In this document: in pieces, positions 15,852 to 24,785 of the stretch
How the letters are laid out: the number at the start of each line of letters is the position of its first letter
How positions within the stretch are numbered: the stretch's first letter is position 1
Assembly: GCA_016778305.1 (NCBI GenBank)
Contig: JADHPT010000015.1
Coordinates: 1 to 34,346, forward strand
Origin: Candidatus Poseidonia sp.
GTDB lineage: Archaea; Thermoplasmatota; Poseidoniia; Poseidoniales; Poseidoniaceae
Reading direction: 5' to 3'
Length of the DNA stretch: 34,346 nucleotides
The notes under the pieces: model-generated
Databases searched by the model: none
Told to the model about the DNA's origin: nothing
Seen by the model: only the letters and a program-made list of their open reading frames with translations
Program-made: the position numbers and the translations under genes

Positions 15852-18095
15852 ATGGTCGCATGGCAAGACGGGCAACGCACTGACCCCGCTGCGTGTCGTG
15901 AACAAGATCGAGGGAAATTCGAAATCACCCACCGTGACGGTCGGGCTCGGCTCGGTCGACTTCATACCAACCACGGAGTCCTCGAAACACCCGCTCTTCT
16001 ACCAGTCGTCAATCCGAACATTCGCACCATTGAACCACGTGTCATGTGGGATAAATATGGCATCGGCGCCCTCATCACGAATTCCTACATCATTTGGAAG
16101 CATGACGATTTGAAAGAAAAGGCCACCAAGGACGGCGTGCATTCGCTCCTGAACTACCCGGGAGTGGTCATGACGGATTCTGGGACCTTCCAGTCCTACA
16201 TGTACGGAGATGTCGAAGTCGGTGTTGATGAAATCGTTGATTTCCAACGAAAGATTGGAGTTGACGTCGCTACCATGCTGGATGTATTTTCACGACCTGA
16301 CATGAAACTTGCCGAGGTTGAACATGCCGTTCGAGAAACCGATGCACGGGCCTCTGCAAGTCTGAAAGCTGCTCAGGACACCATGCTCAACGGCCCTATC
16401 CAAGGAGGCATTCATCGCTCCCTGCGCCAGATCTCTGCTCAACTCATGGCACAACACGATTTTGCTGTCCATCCAATCGGAGGTATCGTTCCGGTCATGG
16501 AACAGCATCGGTACAAGGATTACGCGAAAATCATGATGGCTACGCTCCCCTTGCTTCCCCCGAACCGCCCCGTACACATGTTTGGCTGCGGCCACCCGAT
16601 GCTCTTTCCGATGTCAATTGCTCTTGGCGCTGACCTCTTTGATTCCGCAGCCTATGCCCTATTTGCCCGCGACGGTCGTCTTCTCACTCCATGGGGCACT
16701 GTTCGTATTGCTGAACTCGTGGACTGGCCGATGTTGATGCCGTGCGTGGCTCAACTCACGCCAGCAGACGTGCGAGCCATGCCTGCCCTTGAGCAAGAGA
16801 ACTTACTTGCCCATTACAACTTGGAAATGACGCTGGCCGAACTCGCACGTTGCAAACAAGCCGTCCGTGACGGTACCATTTGGCAACTTGCAGAGCAACG
16901 AAGTCATCATCATCCTGCCCTGAGAGAAGCCTTCCTCTGGCTAACGACCCCTCCGGCAATGCAGCGCGGTGTGCGACCTGATTTATTCTACACGGACCGG
17001 GATGCAGCGCGAGACACTGATGGTGACCAGGGCATGTGGGAAGATGCTTGGGATTGGGTCGTTTGGAGTCAGCAAACTCCACGCAGCGGTGGTGTGCTTT
17101 GGGGTGGAGACGATACGTTTGTGAGGCCTCACATCCAGAAGGCACGACTGTTGCTGCACAACCGTTGGAAACCCCTCGAATCCCGTCGTAAGGCCGTTAT
17201 CTTCCATGGCATTCGCGGGCCCTTCCGTGAACGGCTCTCAGAAGTTCTTGTTTGGCTCAAGCATCACTTGGATGAAGTCCAAGTGCTGATCCTGACACCC
17301 GTTGGCCTCGTACCAATCTCTCTTGAAGATTTGAATCCCTTCGCTCACATTGACGCCCCCTCATGGGTGCTCCAACATCGCCCAGAAGGGCTTTGGATAC
17401 AGCGGGAGCTGGAACATTTGGGGCTCCATGAATGCACGTTCGCCACTGTTAACGTCGCCAGCGATGGAATGAAATTGAGGTTGGAAGAAGCCCTCCAGCA
17501 ACTTGAAATCACCACTCTCGACGTACACAGTACCGTTACGCGAGAGGATGTCGAAACAGCTCGCCACCAATTGCGTATTGATCAAGCGGTTGACAAGCAA
17601 ATGGTGTTGCTGAATCTGGGGCGTTCACAGGCAGAACAGGTGATTGATGGTTGCAGCTTTGTAGTGAATCGTGAGGGCCGTGTCAAAAATGTCAACGGCG
17701 TTGCAGGTCTGCATCTTCTTAGCCCACGCTTGAGGGACGGCGGAGTATCACTCACGAACCATGGTGCTCAACGTATTCTTGATTTGCGAACAGAATCGTT
17801 GCCTACCTCCCTCCCCGATACGGTTTGGTGGGGAAGCGCTAGCAAAGGACCCGCCGTCGTGGTCGTCAGTGCAGACGCCGAACCCTTTGTACGAAAAGGC
17901 AGGAATGTATTCCACGGATTTGTGCTTGCGTGTGACGGATGGCTCGCTCCTGGGGAAGCCTGCCTTATCACGAATGAAAAAGGCACACTCCTCGGACATG
18001 GACTCGCACAATGTACGGCCACAGAGATGGCTGTATTCGCCAAAGGTATCGCAGTAAAAACCCGAGGTGGAGTCGGATCTCCAACCGAGGAATAA
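15852..18095 (+). CDS. tgtA: Archaeosine tRNA-guanine transglycosylase (TgtA), zinc ligands apparently missing
   Basis: Swaps guanine-15 of tRNA for preQ0 on the way to archaeosine. Residues 20-360 are the TGT barrel: VMTDSGTFQ with Asp109 and DLFDSAAYAL with Asp264 carry the two catalytic aspartates. Residues about 365-520 include a DUF5591-like region (ILTPVGLVP), and residues about 670-740 are a PUA RNA-binding domain. Length 747 exceeds the roughly 580 of the Pyrococcus enzyme. The zinc motif CxCxxC is reduced to one cysteine (Cys298, PCVAQLTP), and the zinc histidine aligns with Tyr322. ATG 15852 follows a GAGG site. Confidence 0.9.
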   Translation: MVAWQDGQRTDPAACREQDRGKFEITHRDGRARLGRLHTNHGVLETPALLPVVNPNIRTIEPRVMWDKYGIGALITNSYIIWKHDDLKEKATKDGVHSLLNYPGVVMTDSGTFQSYMYGDVEVGVDEIVDFQRKIGVDVATMLDVFSRPDMKLAEVEHAVRETDARASASLKAAQDTMLNGPIQGGIHRSLRQISAQLMAQHDFAVHPIGGIVPVMEQHRYKDYAKIMMATLPLLPPNRPVHMFGCGHPMLFPMSIALGADLFDSAAYALFARDGRLLTPWGTVRIAELVDWPMLMPCVAQLTPADVRAMPALEQENLLAHYNLEMTLAELARCKQAVRDGTIWQLAEQRSHHHPALREAFLWLTTPPAMQRGVRPDLFYTDRDAARDTDGDQGMWEDAWDWVVWSQQTPRSGGVLWGGDDTFVRPHIQKARLLLHNRWKPLESRRKAVIFHGIRGPFRERLSEVLVWLKHHLDEVQVLILTPVGLVPISLEDLNPFAHIDAPSWVLQHRPEGLWIQRELEHLGLHECTFATVNVASDGMKLRLEEALQQLEITTLDVHSTVTREDVETARHQLRIDQAVDKQMVLLNLGRSQAEQVIDGCSFVVNREGRVKNVNGVAGLHLLSPRLRDGGVSLTNHGAQRILDLRTESLPTSLPDTVWWGSASKGPAVVVVSADAEPFVRKGRNVFHGFVLACDGWLAPGEACLITNEKGTLLGHGLAQCTATEMAVFAKGIAVKTRGGVGSPTEE

Positions 18096-18162
18096 CCTCA
18101 CAGTCACTCAAGCAACAAAAGCCTTCATGGGTCGTCGGACATCACCCTTGCTCGTGGTGCCT

Positions 18163-19173
18163 ATGGAGAATGACCTCATCATTCAAACCAAGGCGTTGAC
18201 AAAATCCTATGGGCCACACATGGCTCTCGAGGATTTGAACCTCAGCGTACCTCGGGGAGCCACTGGATTATTGGGCCAAAACGGCGCAGGCAAGTCCACC
18301 TTCCTGAAGACCATTCTCGGCCTTATTCAGGCCACCTCTGGAGAAGGCACGGTTTTGGGATACGATATCAAAACCCAAGGTGTTGAAATTCGTCAACGGA
18401 TTGGCTATATGCCGGAATACGACGCTCTCAATCCTGGCATGGACGCCATTCATCAGGTGAGATATTCTGGTGAATTGCTCGGAATGAATCCCGTCGTAGC
18501 CATGAGTCGAGCCCATGAGGCCCTGCAATTTGTGGGCATAGGCGAACAACGATATCGAGACATTGGTAGTTTTTCCACCGGAATGAAACAAGCCACGAAG
18601 TTGGCTTGTGCTATCATCCACGACCCAGCCCTGGTGATCGCCGATGAACCTTCGAATGGATTGGACGTGAAAACCAGAGAATTTATGATTTCAACACTCA
18701 ACACCATGGTCAACGACGGGCAACGTTCAGTGTTGATGGCAAGTCACCTCATGGACGACGTTGAGCGAGTTTGTGAAAACATCGTTTTGCTTCACAAAGG
18801 AAGACTTGCTGCTCAAGGGAAAATTCAGGACCTGAAGGCAATTGACAGGGAAATCGAAATCCATGTATGGGGCGGTGCCACTCCTCTCGAACAACGCATG
18901 AAAGACAGCGGACTCAAAGTACGACGTGAGGGGCGTGTCATGCGAATCGCTCACACCCAAGAAGATACCACGCATCTCATCCTTCAAGCAGCGAGCGAGG
19001 TCGGTGCGCAGATTCGACAAATGCATGAATACGAAGCATCACTTGAAGACCTCTTCCTTGCCATTATGGACAACCTTGGCTATGCCGTCAAATCAAGTGA
19101 AGACCTGCTTCGAGGCAAGACAGAGGCTCGCAGGGTGGACGCACCTGAATCACTGGGAGGGAGTGGAGCGTGA
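18163..19173 (+). CDS. ABC transporter ATP-binding protein (first pair)
   Basis: ATPase of an ABC-2 type exporter, DrrA/CcmA-like. From ATG 18163 it has 336 residues: Walker A GQNGAGKST (38-46), signature FSTGMKQ, Walker B LVIADEPSNGLD, and a C-terminal regulatory extension. The frame is open upstream to 18067 inside the TGT gene; 18163 is chosen because the protein then begins in the usual family manner a few residues before TKSYG. ATG 18127 is possible. The gene ends in a GTGA overlap with the permease gene, so both are coupled. Cargo is unknown. Confidence 0.9.
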   Translation: MENDLIIQTKALTKSYGPHMALEDLNLSVPRGATGLLGQNGAGKSTFLKTILGLIQATSGEGTVLGYDIKTQGVEIRQRIGYMPEYDALNPGMDAIHQVRYSGELLGMNPVVAMSRAHEALQFVGIGEQRYRDIGSFSTGMKQATKLACAIIHDPALVIADEPSNGLDVKTREFMISTLNTMVNDGQRSVLMASHLMDDVERVCENIVLLHKGRLAAQGKIQDLKAIDREIEIHVWGGATPLEQRMKDSGLKVRREGRVMRIAHTQEDTTHLILQAASEVGAQIRQMHEYEASLEDLFLAIMDNLGYAVKSSEDLLRGKTEARRVDAPESLGGSGA

Positions 19174-20186
19174 GTGATTCCGAAGAACTCACTCCCGACG
19201 CACCCGTCACCGGGCAGGCAAGGATGGATGTTGCATGGGGGGCAAATACAGGTGACGAGCAGGACGCCTCAACGAATGTAGCTTCAACTGCCAAAAGCGG
19301 TGAGATTTTTGAGCAAGAATATACTCGATGGAACGGTACGCTCAACCCACGCTGGATGCGTAATTGGTCGATTCTGCGTCATCATCTTCTCGGAATTTTC
19401 AAGAAGGGACATCGCCCCTGGTCGATGCCAACTCGGATTTTCATTTTGATCGCATTCTTAGCCTCACTTGGCGATGCTGCCATGACGTTACTTGCGAGTT
19501 TGATCGGAAGTGCAGAAGTCCATTCATGGTTCGGTGTCAACCGAGATAACCTCTACGGACACGTTCTCGGATTTTTCCCTCGCAACGTGCTTTGGTATCC
19601 CATTGTAGCGGCACTCTTGGTTGGTGGTGTGATCTCAGAAGACCGCCATCACGGCACTTCTGCGCTTTACTTCTCAAGACCTGTATCGAGGTTTGACTAC
19701 ATCGGTATGAAGTATCTCTCCGTCGTCATGATTCAATCCTTGGTCGTATTGTTGACGTACTTCATCTATTTCCTGGCAGAAATCTTGGCCTTCGGACGCG
19801 GTTGGTCTTGGATGATCGATGTCTTCCCGATGTTTTTAGCTGGACTCATAGCGGGAATGATTCTTATTGTCACATATACCAGTCTCGGGCTGAGCCTATC
19901 GAGCGTATCACGAGGGCGATTTTTTCCCGGTATTGGTCTGCTTGCCATCGTTTTTGGCAGCAAGACACTTGCGAGTATTGTCAAGAATTTATTTGAACGA
20001 GAAATCCTCTACCTGCTCTCTCCCTACGACTGTGTTGCCCATGTAGGCCAAGCCATCATTGGAACCCAGCCCACATACGACCAATATCCTTGGACCTATT
20101 CGCTGGTTTCACTTGTCGCCATGAACGCTGCAGCATTGTACATTTTAGCAACCCGTGTCTCTTCGATGGAGGTGACCCGTGAATGA
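19170..20186 (+). CDS. ABC-2 type permease (first pair)
   Basis: A 338-residue membrane protein with about six helices: near residues 85-108, 138-155, 170-195, 210-235, 245-265 and 310-330. The segment VGGVISEDRHHGTSALYFSRPVSR is the ABC-2 permease coupling region. An unusually long polar cytoplasmic N-terminus of about 75 residues precedes the first helix. GTG 19170 overlaps the ATPase stop (GTGA) with a strong GGAGGGAG site upstream. It should form the membrane channel for the ATPase at 18163. Confidence 0.85.
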   Translation: MSDSEELTPDAPVTGQARMDVAWGANTGDEQDASTNVASTAKSGEIFEQEYTRWNGTLNPRWMRNWSILRHHLLGIFKKGHRPWSMPTRIFILIAFLASLGDAAMTLLASLIGSAEVHSWFGVNRDNLYGHVLGFFPRNVLWYPIVAALLVGGVISEDRHHGTSALYFSRPVSRFDYIGMKYLSVVMIQSLVVLLTYFIYFLAEILAFGRGWSWMIDVFPMFLAGLIAGMILIVTYTSLGLSLSSVSRGRFFPGIGLLAIVFGSKTLASIVKNLFEREILYLLSPYDCVAHVGQAIIGTQPTYDQYPWTYSLVSLVAMNAAALYILATRVSSMEVTRE

Positions 20187-21172
20187 TTCCAGATGTCTCC
20201 CAACAAGGGGCCTCTGCCCATACTCCCCCGCCAGCAAATCCACAGGCACCGGTCGTGTATTTCCAAGGAGTTTCCAAAACCTACGGCAGAATTCATGCCT
20301 TGAGCAATATCACGCTCGGCCTCTCTGGAGGCGTCACCGGCATATTGGGCATGAATGGGGCGGGGAAATCCACGCTGTTCAAACTCCTCATGGGCAAATT
20401 GCGCCCGTCCTCAGGTGAGGTCAAACTCTTCGGCGTTAATCCGTGGAAAAATCCAGCCCCCTATGCACGTGTTGGTTTCGTACCCGAGCATGAAAAAATG
20501 CATGATTGGATGACGGCTTTAGATTTTGTAAGCACCTTTGCACGCCTTCACGGTATGACCAGAGATGAAGCCACCGACGAAGCGATGCGGGTCTTGGAAT
20601 TCGTAGGCCTTGGCGAAGTAGCCAACAAGGAAATCGGACGCTTTTCGAAAGGTATGCGGCAGCGAACCAAGATTGCACATGCTTTGGTTAACGATCCTGA
20701 CTTGATTATTCTTGATGAACCCCTGCAGGGATGTGACCCCCTAGCGAGGACCACGATCATGAACGTCATACGCGAGTTGGGAAAGATGGGCAGAACTGTA
20801 CTCGTAAGCAGCCACATTTTGAGTGAGATTGAACGCATTACAGAGCAAATCATCATCCTTCACCACGGTAAGTTGGTGGCCCTGGGCAATCTTCATGCCA
20901 TCCGAGAACGACTGGATCAGATACCTCACACCATCCGATTGGTGGGTACGGACGCTCGAGCACTTGCAAAGGATATCCTCGGACACCCTGCGGTCTACGG
21001 CTTGAGTTTCCCAAACGATCACGAATTGCTCATTCAAACCTATCACTTTGGAGAATTGCATGCAGAACTGCCAGGTCTTATTGTGAATAATGGCCATGAT
21101 GTCTCTGAAATTGACAATCCTGATGATGATTTAGAATCCCTCTTGAATTACCTCACCGGAGGGAGTTCATGA
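20183..21172 (+). CDS. ABC transporter ATP-binding protein (second pair)
   Basis: A 329-residue ABC ATPase: Walker A GMNGAGKST (56-64), signature FSKGMRQ, Walker B LIILDEP followed by LQGCD rather than NGLD in the D loop. The first 25 residues are Pro/Ala-rich and probably flexible. ATG 20183 overlaps the permease stop (ATGA). It pairs with the permease at 21169. It is a paralogue of the ATPase at 18163, so the two pairs probably arose by duplication; whether they form one mixed transporter or two is open. Confidence 0.9.
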   Translation: MIPDVSQQGASAHTPPPANPQAPVVYFQGVSKTYGRIHALSNITLGLSGGVTGILGMNGAGKSTLFKLLMGKLRPSSGEVKLFGVNPWKNPAPYARVGFVPEHEKMHDWMTALDFVSTFARLHGMTRDEATDEAMRVLEFVGLGEVANKEIGRFSKGMRQRTKIAHALVNDPDLIILDEPLQGCDPLARTTIMNVIRELGKMGRTVLVSSHILSEIERITEQIIILHHGKLVALGNLHAIRERLDQIPHTIRLVGTDARALAKDILGHPAVYGLSFPNDHELLIQTYHFGELHAELPGLIVNNGHDVSEIDNPDDDLESLLNYLTGGSS

Positions 21173-22473
21173 GCCGCGACAATTCCTCCTTCAGCCTCTG
21201 GAAGGGCGTGGACAGGAAGGCAATGGCGGTCGCTGAGTTCACCATGAAACAGCAACGAAAGCGGCTTTCTACCTGGGTCATCTTTGGCGTTGGTTTTGCA
21301 GCCATGGCCATATTGACCATGTTTTACATCGATGGGATGGTTCGTGATTATGATCCAATCGATAACGATGGAGATTCCATTGACACCGACGGTGACGGCT
21401 ACCCGAACGGTCAAGAAATCGTTTACGGGACTGACATCTACAATGAGAATTCACACCCGGGTTTGCTCAATCCTTCAGTTGAACCCGATGACCCCAGTTT
21501 GTGGATTGATGAAGACGACTTTGATTGGGACGCTTTGGAAGCCGGAAGTCACGGCTATGATGACGACGGAGACTGCCGCACAGATGCACGAACTGACTCT
21601 CAGAAAGACAGCAATAACAACGGCATTCCTTGTGATGTACGCATGGTCAATGCCCTGTATGGCGACGGGATTGCCATTGAAGGTGATACCAATGTTGACG
21701 AAGACCCCGACGATGCAGCATATGCTCGAGAATCCATTCACCGAGCATCCATATTGGCCTTGGGTAAATTTGGATTCGTCTTCTTGATCGGGATTTTTGT
21801 GCCACTCTTCATGGCGACGGGTTTAATCCGTAACGAGATGACCTCTGGAACCATGCATTTCATGCTCGCAAAACCAATTGCACGTACCGAAGTCTTCCTC
21901 TACAGGATGCTTGGCTTCCTCGCTCTTGCCTGGCCCTATGTTACCGTTCTGCTTCTTCTTGAAGTCATCGTGTTCGGATTGGCTGGTCCAAGTGAAGGTT
22001 TCTTCCGACTGCAAGACCTCGGCGTTTGGTTCTCAATTTGGTTGGCTGCTCTACTGGCAATACTTGTCTATGGCATGCTGTTTTGCATGCTTGGAGTGAT
22101 GTGGAAACACGGCATCATTCTCTCGCTTCCTTTTGCCGCATGGGAATTGGGAATGATCCTCACGACCCTTGGTGCTCCAGATGCATCCATCCTCAGATTC
22201 TCAGTGATTGGTTGGGCGATGAACATCGTCGATGCTGGAGCAGCATTGACGTGGACGGACACACCATTGATGATCGAAATGGGCATGTGGTTTGACAGCG
22301 GAGCGAGTGAATCACTTCAAGGTGCGGAAGCCTTGCAAATCTTTGCTTCGACGCCTGGTCTTGGCTTGGGAGCGCTCGCTACCATCGTGGTGTCTGTCAT
22401 CGTCCTCCTGTTCCAAGCAGCCTCATGTTGGTTCCTCGGCGGAGTTCTGTTCAAATCCAAAGAAATTGAGTGA
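21169..22473 (+). CDS. ABC-2 type permease with TSP3-like calcium-binding ectodomain (second pair)
   Basis: A 434-residue permease. Helix 1 is at about 34-54. An acidic loop of about 140 residues follows before helix 2 (about 195-216). Within it, residues 64-95 contain IDTDGDGYPNGQEIVYGTD, a bacterial-type TSP3 calcium-binding repeat, and residues 129-156 a second acidic stretch with Cys136 and Cys155 that could form a disulfide. The remaining protein holds the ABC-2 core (TGLIRNEMTSGTMHFMLAKPIAR) and four to five more helices. By the ABC-2 topology the loop lies outside the cell. ATG 21169 overlaps the ATPase stop (ATGA). Confidence 0.87.
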   Translation: MSRDNSSFSLWKGVDRKAMAVAEFTMKQQRKRLSTWVIFGVGFAAMAILTMFYIDGMVRDYDPIDNDGDSIDTDGDGYPNGQEIVYGTDIYNENSHPGLLNPSVEPDDPSLWIDEDDFDWDALEAGSHGYDDDGDCRTDARTDSQKDSNNNGIPCDVRMVNALYGDGIAIEGDTNVDEDPDDAAYARESIHRASILALGKFGFVFLIGIFVPLFMATGLIRNEMTSGTMHFMLAKPIARTEVFLYRMLGFLALAWPYVTVLLLLEVIVFGLAGPSEGFFRLQDLGVWFSIWLAALLAILVYGMLFCMLGVMWKHGIILSLPFAAWELGMILTTLGAPDASILRFSVIGWAMNIVDAGAALTWTDTPLMIEMGMWFDSGASESLQGAEALQIFASTPGLGLGALATIVVSVIVLLFQAASCWFLGGVLFKSKEIE

Positions 22474-22482
22474 GGTGAGTTC

Positions 22483-23688
22483 ATGCCGCAACCAACCATT
22501 CCTCCTGCCTTTATCGGTGATTTCTCTACGATGTGGAAACTCGCAATCCGCCCACCTTTGTGGCACATGACCTGGGATTGGTGGTGGTGGCTGGTCATGC
22601 TGGATGATGACGAAGAACGTCCTTGGGGTCAACAACTCATGGTTTTGTGGTCGACCAAAGATAATGACCGCGTTGAAGTCAGCGGAACACCGTGGCTACC
22701 ACGTGGAAGACCGGGTGTTGATGATGACAAAGCCATGATTCTTGATGGCATGGTGTGTGCGTGGTGGTTTGACGGAACAACGATGCACGAGCCCTACATC
22801 AAGAGAAAGAGCAACATGATTGTCATGGATGACCTTCACCCGCAATGGCCAAACAAGGGAAAGGGGCAGGGAGGTGGGGCCGTTGCTCCGTTGCTTGACG
22901 ATGACCTCTCCATGGGCTTGGCCAGCGACCTGTCACATTTTTGGCTCAATCTGAAAGGCGACTCAGATGCCGTGCGGGCTGGAGCACCCCAACACATGCA
23001 GCTTGAGTTGACCCCTTGGAACCCAGCCATGTCAATCGCTCGTCCGTCCAATGCAACCTATGCAGCAAACATGGGCTACGATATTCTGCGTGTTCACGGG
23101 ACAAAGGTGAAAGGAATCATTGATGAAAAAGAGGTAACTGGAACGGCATATTTCCAGAAGGTATGTGTTCAAGCCCCTTCGCCACCTTGGTATTGGGGCG
23201 TGCTTCATTTCGAGGATGGCACCTATATGGATTGGTTTCTCCCACACCTCTCACCAACGATGACCTCACGAAACCCTCGCCCGTGGAAGCGACGCGATAT
23301 CCAACATATCGCCCTCTCTCAAGGAGGACTTTTTCACGATGCAAAACATCAACGAACCGAAAAGTTTGCTCGTGTAACCGTCATCAAAGAGGCTTCGTCA
23401 CGTCGAGAGGGACAGCACGGACAGACACCTGGCGCTCCACTTCCGAGATTTAACGTACACATGTGGAACGGGAGAACGAGCATCAAACTGGTTGTGGAAG
23501 CTGTTGAACGGGCACATTGGCATTTTGATCAACCTACGCGCGGCGGTCTTTGGTCACACCTGACCTACAACGAATACCCGTTGGAGGTCGTGCGCCTCGA
23601 AATCAAGGACGAACACGGTCTGCGAACTCGCACAGATTACGGGTGGGCCAGAGGGAATGCCGAACACGCTTGGGGCATACTCCATTGA
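22483..23688 (+). CDS. Possible CrtC/AttH lipocalin-like protein
   Basis: A 401-residue protein without signal peptide or membrane helix. The N-terminal WDWWWWLVMLDDDEERPWGQ resembles the WWY...L.D..G..YG.Q opening of CrtC/AttH (hydroxyneurosporene synthase-like) lipocalin domains, and the middle segment with KVKGIIDEKEVTG and a later WYWGVLHFEDGTYMDWF resembles the second strand set of that fold. This is a weak motif match; function is unknown. It lies 9 bp after the second ABC permease with a GAGGTGAG ribosome site, so it is probably read with the exporter and may handle its lipid-like substrate. Confidence 0.55.
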   Translation: MPQPTIPPAFIGDFSTMWKLAIRPPLWHMTWDWWWWLVMLDDDEERPWGQQLMVLWSTKDNDRVEVSGTPWLPRGRPGVDDDKAMILDGMVCAWWFDGTTMHEPYIKRKSNMIVMDDLHPQWPNKGKGQGGGAVAPLLDDDLSMGLASDLSHFWLNLKGDSDAVRAGAPQHMQLELTPWNPAMSIARPSNATYAANMGYDILRVHGTKVKGIIDEKEVTGTAYFQKVCVQAPSPPWYWGVLHFEDGTYMDWFLPHLSPTMTSRNPRPWKRRDIQHIALSQGGLFHDAKHQRTEKFARVTVIKEASSRREGQHGQTPGAPLPRFNVHMWNGRTSIKLVVEAVERAHWHFDQPTRGGLWSHLTYNEYPLEVVRLEIKDEHGLRTRTDYGWARGNAEHAWGILH

Positions 23689-23756: not shown

Positions 23757-24785
23757 ATGTCGGAAGAAAACCAAGAAACGGAAGTCAAAGAAACCTTGAC
23801 AGAAGAATCTGTTCAAGCGTCTCAAACCGAGTCGCTCAAGAAGAAATACCGCTTGATCACGGGTGAAAGTGTCTTACCGAACGGAGAAGCAAAGCCCAGT
23901 ACCTTGGCCTTCATCGGTATGTATATACTCGGCCTGATTGTTTTTGGCGTGCATTTCCTCTTCGGGAACGGCGTCAATGCCTCCGATGATGCATCGATGC
24001 CCTTGAGAATTGTCAGCAGCCTCATCGCTCTTACCGGTAGCGAGTCGGTCCCTATCGGCTTCGTACTCGTGATGGGATTCATTACATGGGCCAATCGCAT
24101 GATGAATGTATCAACATCTGGCCGTTGGGTCACCATCGCTCTTTTGGTCATCACATTCATGCCCGTTCTCATTCAGATCGACGATATGTTGGGTTACATT
24201 CTGAGCCTCTTCAGCGACGGAGACGTAGGAGATTTCATTCCCTTTGGCTATGATTACATCATCTTTGGAGCAATCTTTACTCTCCTCTTCTGGGGTGCTA
24301 CGTGGAAATATCAACGCAGTTTTTCATATGCAGTGACCACCAATGCAGTCATTTTCCAGCACAGTTTCTTGCTCTCAAGGTCACACCGAAGAATCCTGTT
24401 TGACCGTATCTCCGAAGTGATGGTTGAACGTACACCCATGGGTACCATGCTCGGCTATGCTACGGTGACGATCATGACCGATTCAGGCGTCGGCTTGGTC
24501 GATGAGACTGTGGGGGTTAACGCAGGCGGAAACATGCCCGGTACATCTGATAAATCGGAAGATTCTACCGCAACCAAAGTCCGCAAGGGCTTCCTTCGTT
24601 CCTTCTTTGCATTCCTGTCCTATCAGCGAACCTCACGTCGTGTTGACCCCGACCCAAAGCACTGCTTTTACAAAATTAGGAAGTGGGAAAGCACCAAGCT
24701 TATGTTGAATGAAATGCATAAAAAACACTCCTCGTCCAACCTGCTTGAAGACCTCAAAGAAGCCATCTCTTCTGACGAGAAGTGA
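23757..24785 (+). CDS. Membrane protein with bacterial PH-like domain (bPH2)
   Basis: A 342-residue protein with a polar N-terminus (1-45), about four membrane helices (near 49-70, 98-114, 124-140 and 165-183), then a bPH2/YdbS-like domain at about 188-241 (SYAVTTNAVIFQ ... RRILFDRISEVMVER). The C-terminus after 245 is charged and carries a basic helix near the end. Such proteins are often membrane-organising accessory factors; no reaction is known. It follows the lipocalin-like gene by 68 bp with an AGAGG site before ATG, and overlaps the frame of the next gene only if that gene uses its far upstream GTG. Confidence 0.75.
   Translation: MSEENQETEVKETLTEESVQASQTESLKKKYRLITGESVLPNGEAKPSTLAFIGMYILGLIVFGVHFLFGNGVNASDDASMPLRIVSSLIALTGSESVPIGFVLVMGFITWANRMMNVSTSGRWVTIALLVITFMPVLIQIDDMLGYILSLFSDGDVGDFIPFGYDYIIFGAIFTLLFWGATWKYQRSFSYAVTTNAVIFQHSFLLSRSHRRILFDRISEVMVERTPMGTMLGYATVTIMTDSGVGLVDETVGVNAGGNMPGTSDKSEDSTATKVRKGFLRSFFAFLSYQRTSRRVDPDPKHCFYKIRKWESTKLMLNEMHKKHSSSNLLEDLKEAISSDEK

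Follow-up and report, generated by a model that had tools for sequence, protein, structure and literature searches.

Gene organization and conservation of the cassette

The window, a stretch of 34,346 nucleotides of Candidatus Poseidonia sp. (contig JADHPT010000015.1), contains a tight run of five genes on the forward strand in the order ATPase–permease–ATPase–permease–p401. The first gene, atp1 (18067..19173), encodes an ABC ATPase (PF00005, 1.1e-25) whose true start probably lies downstream of 18067. It is followed by prm1 (19170..20186), encoding an ABC-2 permease without an ectodomain (PF13346, 4e-10; PF12679, 7.2e-7), and atp2 (20183..21172), encoding a second ABC ATPase (PF00005, 2e-27). 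The fourth gene, prm2 (21169..22473), encodes a second permease, of 434 aa, which bears the ectodomain described below. PF12679 (ABC2_membrane_2) matched prm2 with 44.4 bits against a cut-off of 27.2 (1.7e-11) and, with the adjoining ATPase gene, this identifies the protein as an ABC-2 permease. Neighbours among these four genes overlap by 4 bases, and the ATPases and permeases are encoded by four separate ORFs with no fused chain. A gap of 9 bases separates prm2 from the fifth gene, p401 (22483..23688), which encodes a soluble-looking, all-beta protein predicted to have an AttH/CrtC double-lipocalin fold.

The synteny of the cassette was assessed in 107 loci (L031–L057 and L059–L138; L057 and L129 seem to be one contig), and each gene was scored only where the locus extended far enough on its side. 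On this basis, atp1 was kept in 93 of 93 loci, prm1 in 95 of 95, atp2 in 102 of 102 and p401 in 97 of 97. A gene encoding a bPH_2 membrane protein (23757..24785, forward strand; PF03703, 4.3e-8) was kept in 81 of 89 loci and is probably a looser neighbour, outside the system. Directly upstream of the cassette, at 15852–18095, lies a gene that we take to be tgt-like, which was kept in 91 of 92 loci.

The closest named relatives, from records titled Candidatus Poseidoniales, Euryarchaeota UBA256 and Poseidonia sp., were 91–95% identical. A prm2 match was present in 57 of 59 genomes sampled from the window's genus, family and order, a set that contains the window's own genome, and was missing from two (G013 and G042); G002 held a C-terminal fragment. 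In a class-level sample, prm2 was matched in 260 of 292 genomes: 258 of the 271 Poseidoniales and, with weak scores (E 4e-6 and 6e-6), two of the 21 genomes of a different order within the class. In a phylum-level sample, matches were found in 89 of 292 genomes, including 77 of the 81 Poseidoniales, and the 12 matches outside the order were confined to residues 179–356, the membrane core. In this same sample, p401 was present in 79 of the 81 Poseidoniales and in 10 further genomes from elsewhere in the phylum. The ectodomain core was present in every complete Poseidoniales copy of prm2 that we read. An assembly artefact as the origin of the insert was rejected, as the same motifs recurred across many independent assemblies. 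According to one account (PMC6461757), the Poseidoniales outnumber all other planktonic archaea in surface waters and have no cultured members. Kept by nearly all sampled members, the cassette is a candidate for an order-specific envelope or lipid function.

One record titled Gammaproteobacteria (L100; PAEL01000113.1) holds a typical Poseidoniaceae-like locus, with 55% identity and the same gene order. The record is probably mislabelled or contaminated.

The ectodomain of prm2

The initial annotation had described extra residues between helices 1 and 2 of the permease, a canonical TSP3 repeat within them and a second acidic stretch with two Cys, and all three were borne out. The interval concerned, 21328–21745, corresponds to prm2 residues 54–193. 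An AlphaFold2 model of prm2, built with 76 sequences (mean pLDDT 76.8, pTM 0.76), has helices at residues 33–58 and 182–215, and the loop between them comprises ∼135 Asp-rich residues, among them a single TSP3 repeat and a segment with two Cys. Based on these helices and on conservation, the ectodomain was delimited to residues 59–194 (21343..21750, forward strand). Its blocks were modelled with pLDDT values of 59–83, that is, with moderate confidence only.

To describe the conservation of the loop, 23 of 190 loci were left out (truncated, containing X or without a usable frame, and also the full-length L021 and L076), which gave 167 aligned loci and 124 distinct rows. The loop of L021, outside the alignment, shows the same core. 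Sixteen core residues were invariant in 124 of 124 rows, and they fall in three blocks. Core loop 1 is made of two halves: DNDGD (21361..21375), with invariant D65, D67 and D69, and IDEDD (21505..21519), with invariant E115 and D116. Core loop 2 (DDDGDC...KDSNNNGIPCD, 21559..21636), within a two-Cys stretch reading GYDDDGDC...NNNGIPCDV, holds invariant D131, G134, D135, C136 and C155, and the two Cys presumably form a disulfide. The third conserved segment, DTNVDEDP...E..HR (21685..21744), leads into helix 2 and contributes D173, V176, E178, P180, E188 and H191. D147 and N149 were kept in 123 rows and D179 in 123 plus one X; R192 was Arg in only 93 of the 124 rows. In comparisons with three relatives of 91–94% identity, dN/dS (NG86) was 0.038–0.053 for the loop versus 0.026–0.035 for the rest of prm2, with high dS (0.8–1.6) and with two more distant relatives saturated or near-saturated. 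Both the loop and the rest of prm2 are under strong constraint.

Residues 59–185 contain 37 Asp and Glu but only 5 Lys and Arg, versus 3 and 8, respectively, in residues 1–32. The number of Cys in the loop was even in all 124 rows: two in 105, four in 16 and six in three. Because this distribution of charge, the even Cys count and the occurrence of the same module in a secreted-looking M14 peptidase (see below) point in one direction, the ectodomain probably faces outside. The same three observations led us to reject a loop inside the cell, and they support the outward-facing, TSP3-bearing ectodomain that had been proposed for this ABC-2 permease. Judging from its sequence, the ectodomain is very probably calcium-binding and is probably stiffened by calcium and one disulfide.

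Pfam had no match in TSP3-free cores of 94 and 97 aa. Against solved structures, the ectodomain sequence had no match at E ≤ 10, and a second search gave six chance-level matches (E ≥ 0.11). In most of the copies of family f2 that we examined (L036–L038 and L041–L056), an extra, beta-rich-looking piece of ∼110 residues is nested beside the TSP3 repeat. GNHTW or GNKTW is often found in this piece, which as a rule adds at least two Cys; two samples of it had no Pfam match.

A dispensable TSP3 repeat

The TSP3 repeat spans residues 72–89 (21382..21435, forward strand). In whole prm2, DTDGDGYPNGQEIVYGTD fell slightly short as a match to the TSP3_bac family (PF18884), at 23.5 bits for a cut-off of 25; within the cut-out loop, the same match scored 25.6 bits, above the cut-off, which places the repeat in the family. 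A bare Dx[DN]xDG motif means little here because it occurred in 31,756 of 200,000 composition-preserving shuffles of the Asp-rich loop. By comparison, the full DxDxDG...GQE...GT signature occurred in none of 200,000. For the repeat and the ectodomain alike, conservation is stronger evidence than motif statistics: D72, D74, D76, G77, Y78, Q82 and E83 were kept in 104 of 104 TSP3-bearing copies.

The presence of the repeat was mapped on a quick-search tree of the membrane core with SH-aLRT support, rooted at the midpoint only. The 79 rows of this tree, left once redundant ones had been removed, divide into 59 that have TSP3 and 20 that do not. The presence of the repeat required four changes, all forced by starred branches. 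The TSP3-free rows belong to genera g3 (six rows) and g17 (two) of family f1 and to genus g10 (12) of family f2. In these 20 rows, the ectodomain has 94–106 residues and core loop 1 runs uninterrupted as DxDxDGxx(D/N)ED. Since the TSP3-positive rows are widely spread, the simpler reading is that these absences stem from about four separate losses. Thus, in parts of three genera the repeat is missing while the transporter and the core loops remain; p401 was retained as well in G038, G054, G071, G095 and G115, the five such genomes in the phylum sample. The repeat as the functional heart of the domain was accordingly rejected.

These data bear on the idea, put forward in the initial annotation, that calcium gates or is sensed by an exporter, its binding to the TSP3 repeat opening or closing export. 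The full retention of the calcium-ligand positions wherever the repeat is present speaks for it, and the domain could be coupled to a gate through E188 and H191, which are invariant and lie where helix 2 begins. However, about four changes in the tree removed the repeat and left the transporter intact, and such a domain is absent from the transporter in another order of the class. Moreover, calcium in seawater is high, about 10 mM, and nearly constant. Because the sites would stay filled under these conditions, sensing is less likely than a structural role, and we consider gating by calcium very unlikely.

Core loop 2 was also considered as a eukaryote-type TSP3 Cys repeat, to which it bears a resemblance; this assignment was not adopted, Pfam having no such match there. 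In all, the window's own genome has 25 TSP3 matches, prm2 included. Four of its contigs (C3, C22, C26 and C33 of G000) carry large frames of 582–2977 aa with several TSP3_bac repeats each, which are probably surface proteins. Like other proteins of PF18884, prm2 holds all calcium-ligand positions in its repeat; unlike them, it has a single copy that is dispensable, is nested in another calcium-type loop and sits in a transporter.

The repeats in large frames elsewhere in the genome, and the reading of Poseidoniales 'thrombospondin genes' as adhesion genes in one study (PMC6461757), would fit an ectodomain that serves in surface attachment or as an S-layer or glycan anchor, with an adhesive TSP3 repeat and a transporter acting only as membrane anchor. 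This function is improbable for a domain so short (∼135 residues, or 94–106 without TSP3) with one repeat only. In addition, the ectodomain is fixed to a conserved cassette, and conservation within the domain falls on the core rather than on the TSP3 repeat.

The same module in an M14 carboxypeptidase

We searched 194 genomes of the phylum with an ectodomain profile (alignment A4, eight rows). The profile matched prm2 in 46 of the 48 Poseidoniales genomes; 25 of them also gave a match to a second frame, of 340–1066 aa and mostly 720–810 aa. Outside the order, it gave one weak match, to a different protein (G062, E 2.6e-4). As Asp-rich sequence inflates the scores of this profile, weight was placed on the order of Cys and Asp rather than on the E-value alone.

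Five of the 25 second frames were examined. All five contain an HHAREW motif. Hydrophobic stretches occur at both the N and the C terminus in four of them; L243, the remaining one, has an X near its start. According to Pfam, which was run on two of the frames, they are M14 peptidases (Peptidase_M14, PF00246; 1.2e-32 and 5.4e-32). The peptidase looks secreted and membrane-anchored. In the window's own genome, the second module-bearing frame lies on another contig (G000:C19, E 6.7e-5). This frame (L240:4100-6526, reverse strand) encodes an M14 zinc carboxypeptidase that has a hydrophobic segment at either terminus and bears the calcium/Cys module.

The module common to the two proteins reads DNDGDGxxDED, D(D/N)DGDC...DxNGDGxxC and VDED, with both Cys aligned. 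In the carboxypeptidase, it is inserted in the peptidase, and none of the five frames examined has a TSP3 repeat. In a hand-chosen set of seven sequences, three TSP3-free permease loops versus four peptidase inserts, both Cys were invariant, as were 25 columns in all. The presence of the same core in an M14 carboxypeptidase supports an extracellular calcium-binding module. The best explanation, in which we place about even confidence, is that the ectodomain is a portable Poseidoniales module made of Asp loop 1, Cys-paired Asp loop 2 and the VDEDP segment.

Relation of the permease and p401 to known systems

Foldseek searches with the prm2 model ranked NosDFY chains first (7o0y_D: E 6.1e-3, prob 1.00, TM 0.36/0.56), followed by ABCG25 and, further down, ABCG2; no match had E ≤ 0.001. 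The prm2 profile had no match to solved structures at E ≤ 1, and NCBIfam had none for prm2 or p401 at 0.1. By their length, the matched NosDFY chains are presumably NosY, with which prm2 would share the permease fold and the ABC-2 core. NosY works with a separate NosD protein and is not known to have such an ectodomain. The Poseidoniales cassette differs from NosDFY in having two different permeases, two ATPases and p401.

In ABCA lipid transporters, which are of a related type, a large extracellular domain is reported to lie exactly between TM1 and TM2; the two halves of these transporters are fused into one chain, and each contributes domains that form a tunnel (PMC13161189). The predicted position of the prm2 ectodomain matches that in ABCA1 and ABCA4. 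By contrast, the Poseidoniales system consists of four chains with one small Asp-rich domain, and searches against solved structures gave no sequence relation between ABCA and this domain.

The fifth protein, p401, has neither a hydrophobic stretch nor a signal. It was more conserved than prm2, with a mean column identity of 75% versus 66% (74 and 76 rows, respectively). Its AlphaFold2 model is all-beta (pLDDT 89.5). In Foldseek, this model matched AttH NE1406 (2ich, 5.6e-8), Fsa2 (1.9e-7) and kievitone hydratase (1.5e-6), with Phm7 and 25-phosphosteroid lyase also among the top matches. On the predicted model, p401 has the double lipocalin-like barrel fold of AttH/CrtC. TM-scores to the top folds were only 0.42–0.55, with an rmsd of about 8–9, and p401 may have the same fold with other barrel angles. 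The likeness to the AttH/CrtC double lipocalins is not matched at the level of Pfam: no AttH/CrtC match was found in p401, in 74 Poseidoniales members or in eight relatives from outside the order. Pfam gave only weak, unrelated matches for p401, and a profile search against solved structures gave one match, at E 2.

Fsa2, Phm7, kievitone hydratase and 25-phosphosteroid lyase act on hydrophobic compounds; we know of no established function for AttH. The available account of the AttH-type protein NE1406 describes a two-barrel layout, links its family to ABC transporters by genome context and proposes a role in lipid transport (PMC2954199). For p401, its fold and its synteny inside one order provide the putative link to lipid transport. 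In 14 loci from outside the order (L191–L204; several contigs end near p401), p401 relatives were not beside these ABC genes and had no consistent partner.

The ranking of NosDFY chains as nearest solved folds, taken as NosY, raises the alternative that the ABC pair moves no substrate of its own and instead exerts mechanical work, in the maturation or assembly of a surface protein, on an extracellular partner bound to the ectodomain. Nevertheless, no NosD beta-helix partner was found among the cassette genes, that is, the ATPases, the permeases and p401, and no gene for an extracellular partner is linked to them. p401 itself is predicted to be lipocalin-like rather than a beta-helix and is without a hydrophobic stretch. 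We therefore regard a NosDFY-like machine as unlikely.

Proposed function of the cassette

The reading that we prefer, and to which we give an even chance of being correct, is that the cassette encodes a heteromeric ABC-2 transporter that moves a hydrophobic compound and has an outer domain stabilised by calcium and a disulfide, with p401 binding or modifying hydrophobic compounds inside the cell. The transporter would be NosY/ABCG/ABCA-like, with two ATPases and two permeases, one of which bears the outer domain. A hydrophobic compound is suggested as the substrate because of the kinship to ABCG/ABCA-type folds and the AttH-like partner. Inside, p401 would probably bind or modify this compound, such as a lipid, an isoprenoid or a quinone-like molecule, and feed it to the pump.

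Outside, calcium and one disulfide would hold the small domain rigid, with the TSP3 repeat, and in many copies the f2 piece, nested in its first loop. Situated at the entrance to helix 2, the domain would most likely be an exit-side platform or cap, or else a docking face for a surface component. Calcium would let the ectodomain fold once outside and stay folded, rather than act as a signal. A structural role of this kind has precedents in one account of Dx[DN]xDG sites, according to which calcium at such sites stabilises proteins, the sites are biased to surface and secreted proteins, and a calcium-binding insertion holding one is needed for the folding of an archaeal subtilisin (PMC3123361). 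For the Poseidoniales system, the data establish the genes with their order, conservation and pattern of presence and absence, the indicators of topology and, by prediction, the fold class of p401; from these, we infer calcium binding, the disulfide, assembly of the complex, the substrate, the direction of transport and the platform role.

No such permease was found described in the literature searched (open-licence papers; titles and abstract starts). The parts are of known kinds; what is new to us is the way in which they are combined, the retention of this combination across the order and the swap-site pattern presented below.

The helix 1–2 loop in other Thermoplasmatota

The prm1 profile had a match in eight of nine genomes tried from f3, in another order of the class. 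The eight loci carry the run atp1–prm1–atp2–permease with gaps: atp1 went undetected in L230, and L231 breaks off beyond permease 1. Seven of the eight have a permease 2, which is a distant homologue of prm2 (hhalign probability 97.4%; hmmsearch E 6e-10 to 2e-4 in six). Its helix 1–2 loop, delimited by hydropathy, has about 26–37 residues. A DEDGD string in the loop of L224 was judged to be chance, as it was absent from the other five loops examined. No p401 was found in the eight loci or in the six f3 genomes of the phylum sample; the gene following permease 2 has a DnaJ-like start in seven of seven. Accordingly, the Poseidoniales have the ectodomain as well as p401, and the f3 cassettes have neither. 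Absence of the insert from close relatives with intact transporters, which the initial annotation named as an observation that would refute its reading, holds for this other order but not within the Poseidoniales, among the complete copies examined.

Elsewhere in the Thermoplasmatota, the same loop holds other domains. Permease 2 of L228 (4037-5566) has two CARDB stretches there (3.9e-23), and permease 1 of L206 (3915-5594) has NPCBM_assoc/NEW3 (8.5e-7). Inserts to which Pfam gave no name occupy the helix 1–2 loop in permease 1 of L227 (3865-5757; ∼400 residues) and in a permease-2-like protein of L205 (6848-9034; ∼370 residues). Like prm2, these four proteins have an extended loop, here of 270–400 residues, and f3, L206 and L228 have the ATPase–permease–ATPase–permease order of the Poseidoniales cassette; in L227, a second ATPase was not seen. 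They differ in that their domains are Ig-like or unassigned and sometimes on permease 1, with no adjoining p401. The statement that this loop is normally very short in ABC-2 permeases therefore applies to some of them, but not to ABCA or to several Thermoplasmatota homologues, which carry large domains.

As f3 is without the ectodomain and other Thermoplasmatota have CARDB or NEW3 at this position, the helix 1–2 loop of these ABC-2 permeases is, by sequence comparison, a swap site. A broader and more tentative extension of our proposal, which we think less likely to be right than wrong, is that the loop is an evolutionary socket. In it, the calcium/disulfide module, inserted by the Poseidoniales ancestor and joined by an AttH-like carrier encoded alongside, would have given rise to a new, order-defining machine for a lipid-like compound. 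The lipocalin inside would hand the compound through the pump to a calcium-folded cap outside. Calcium is nanomolar inside the cell and millimolar in seawater, and this difference across the membrane would give the ectodomain one-way folding. Related ABC-2 cassettes without an ectodomain, with the calcium module, with the TSP3 repeat in addition, or with Ig-like domains in the same loop constitute a natural experiment, and comparing them lets the function of the loop be tested.
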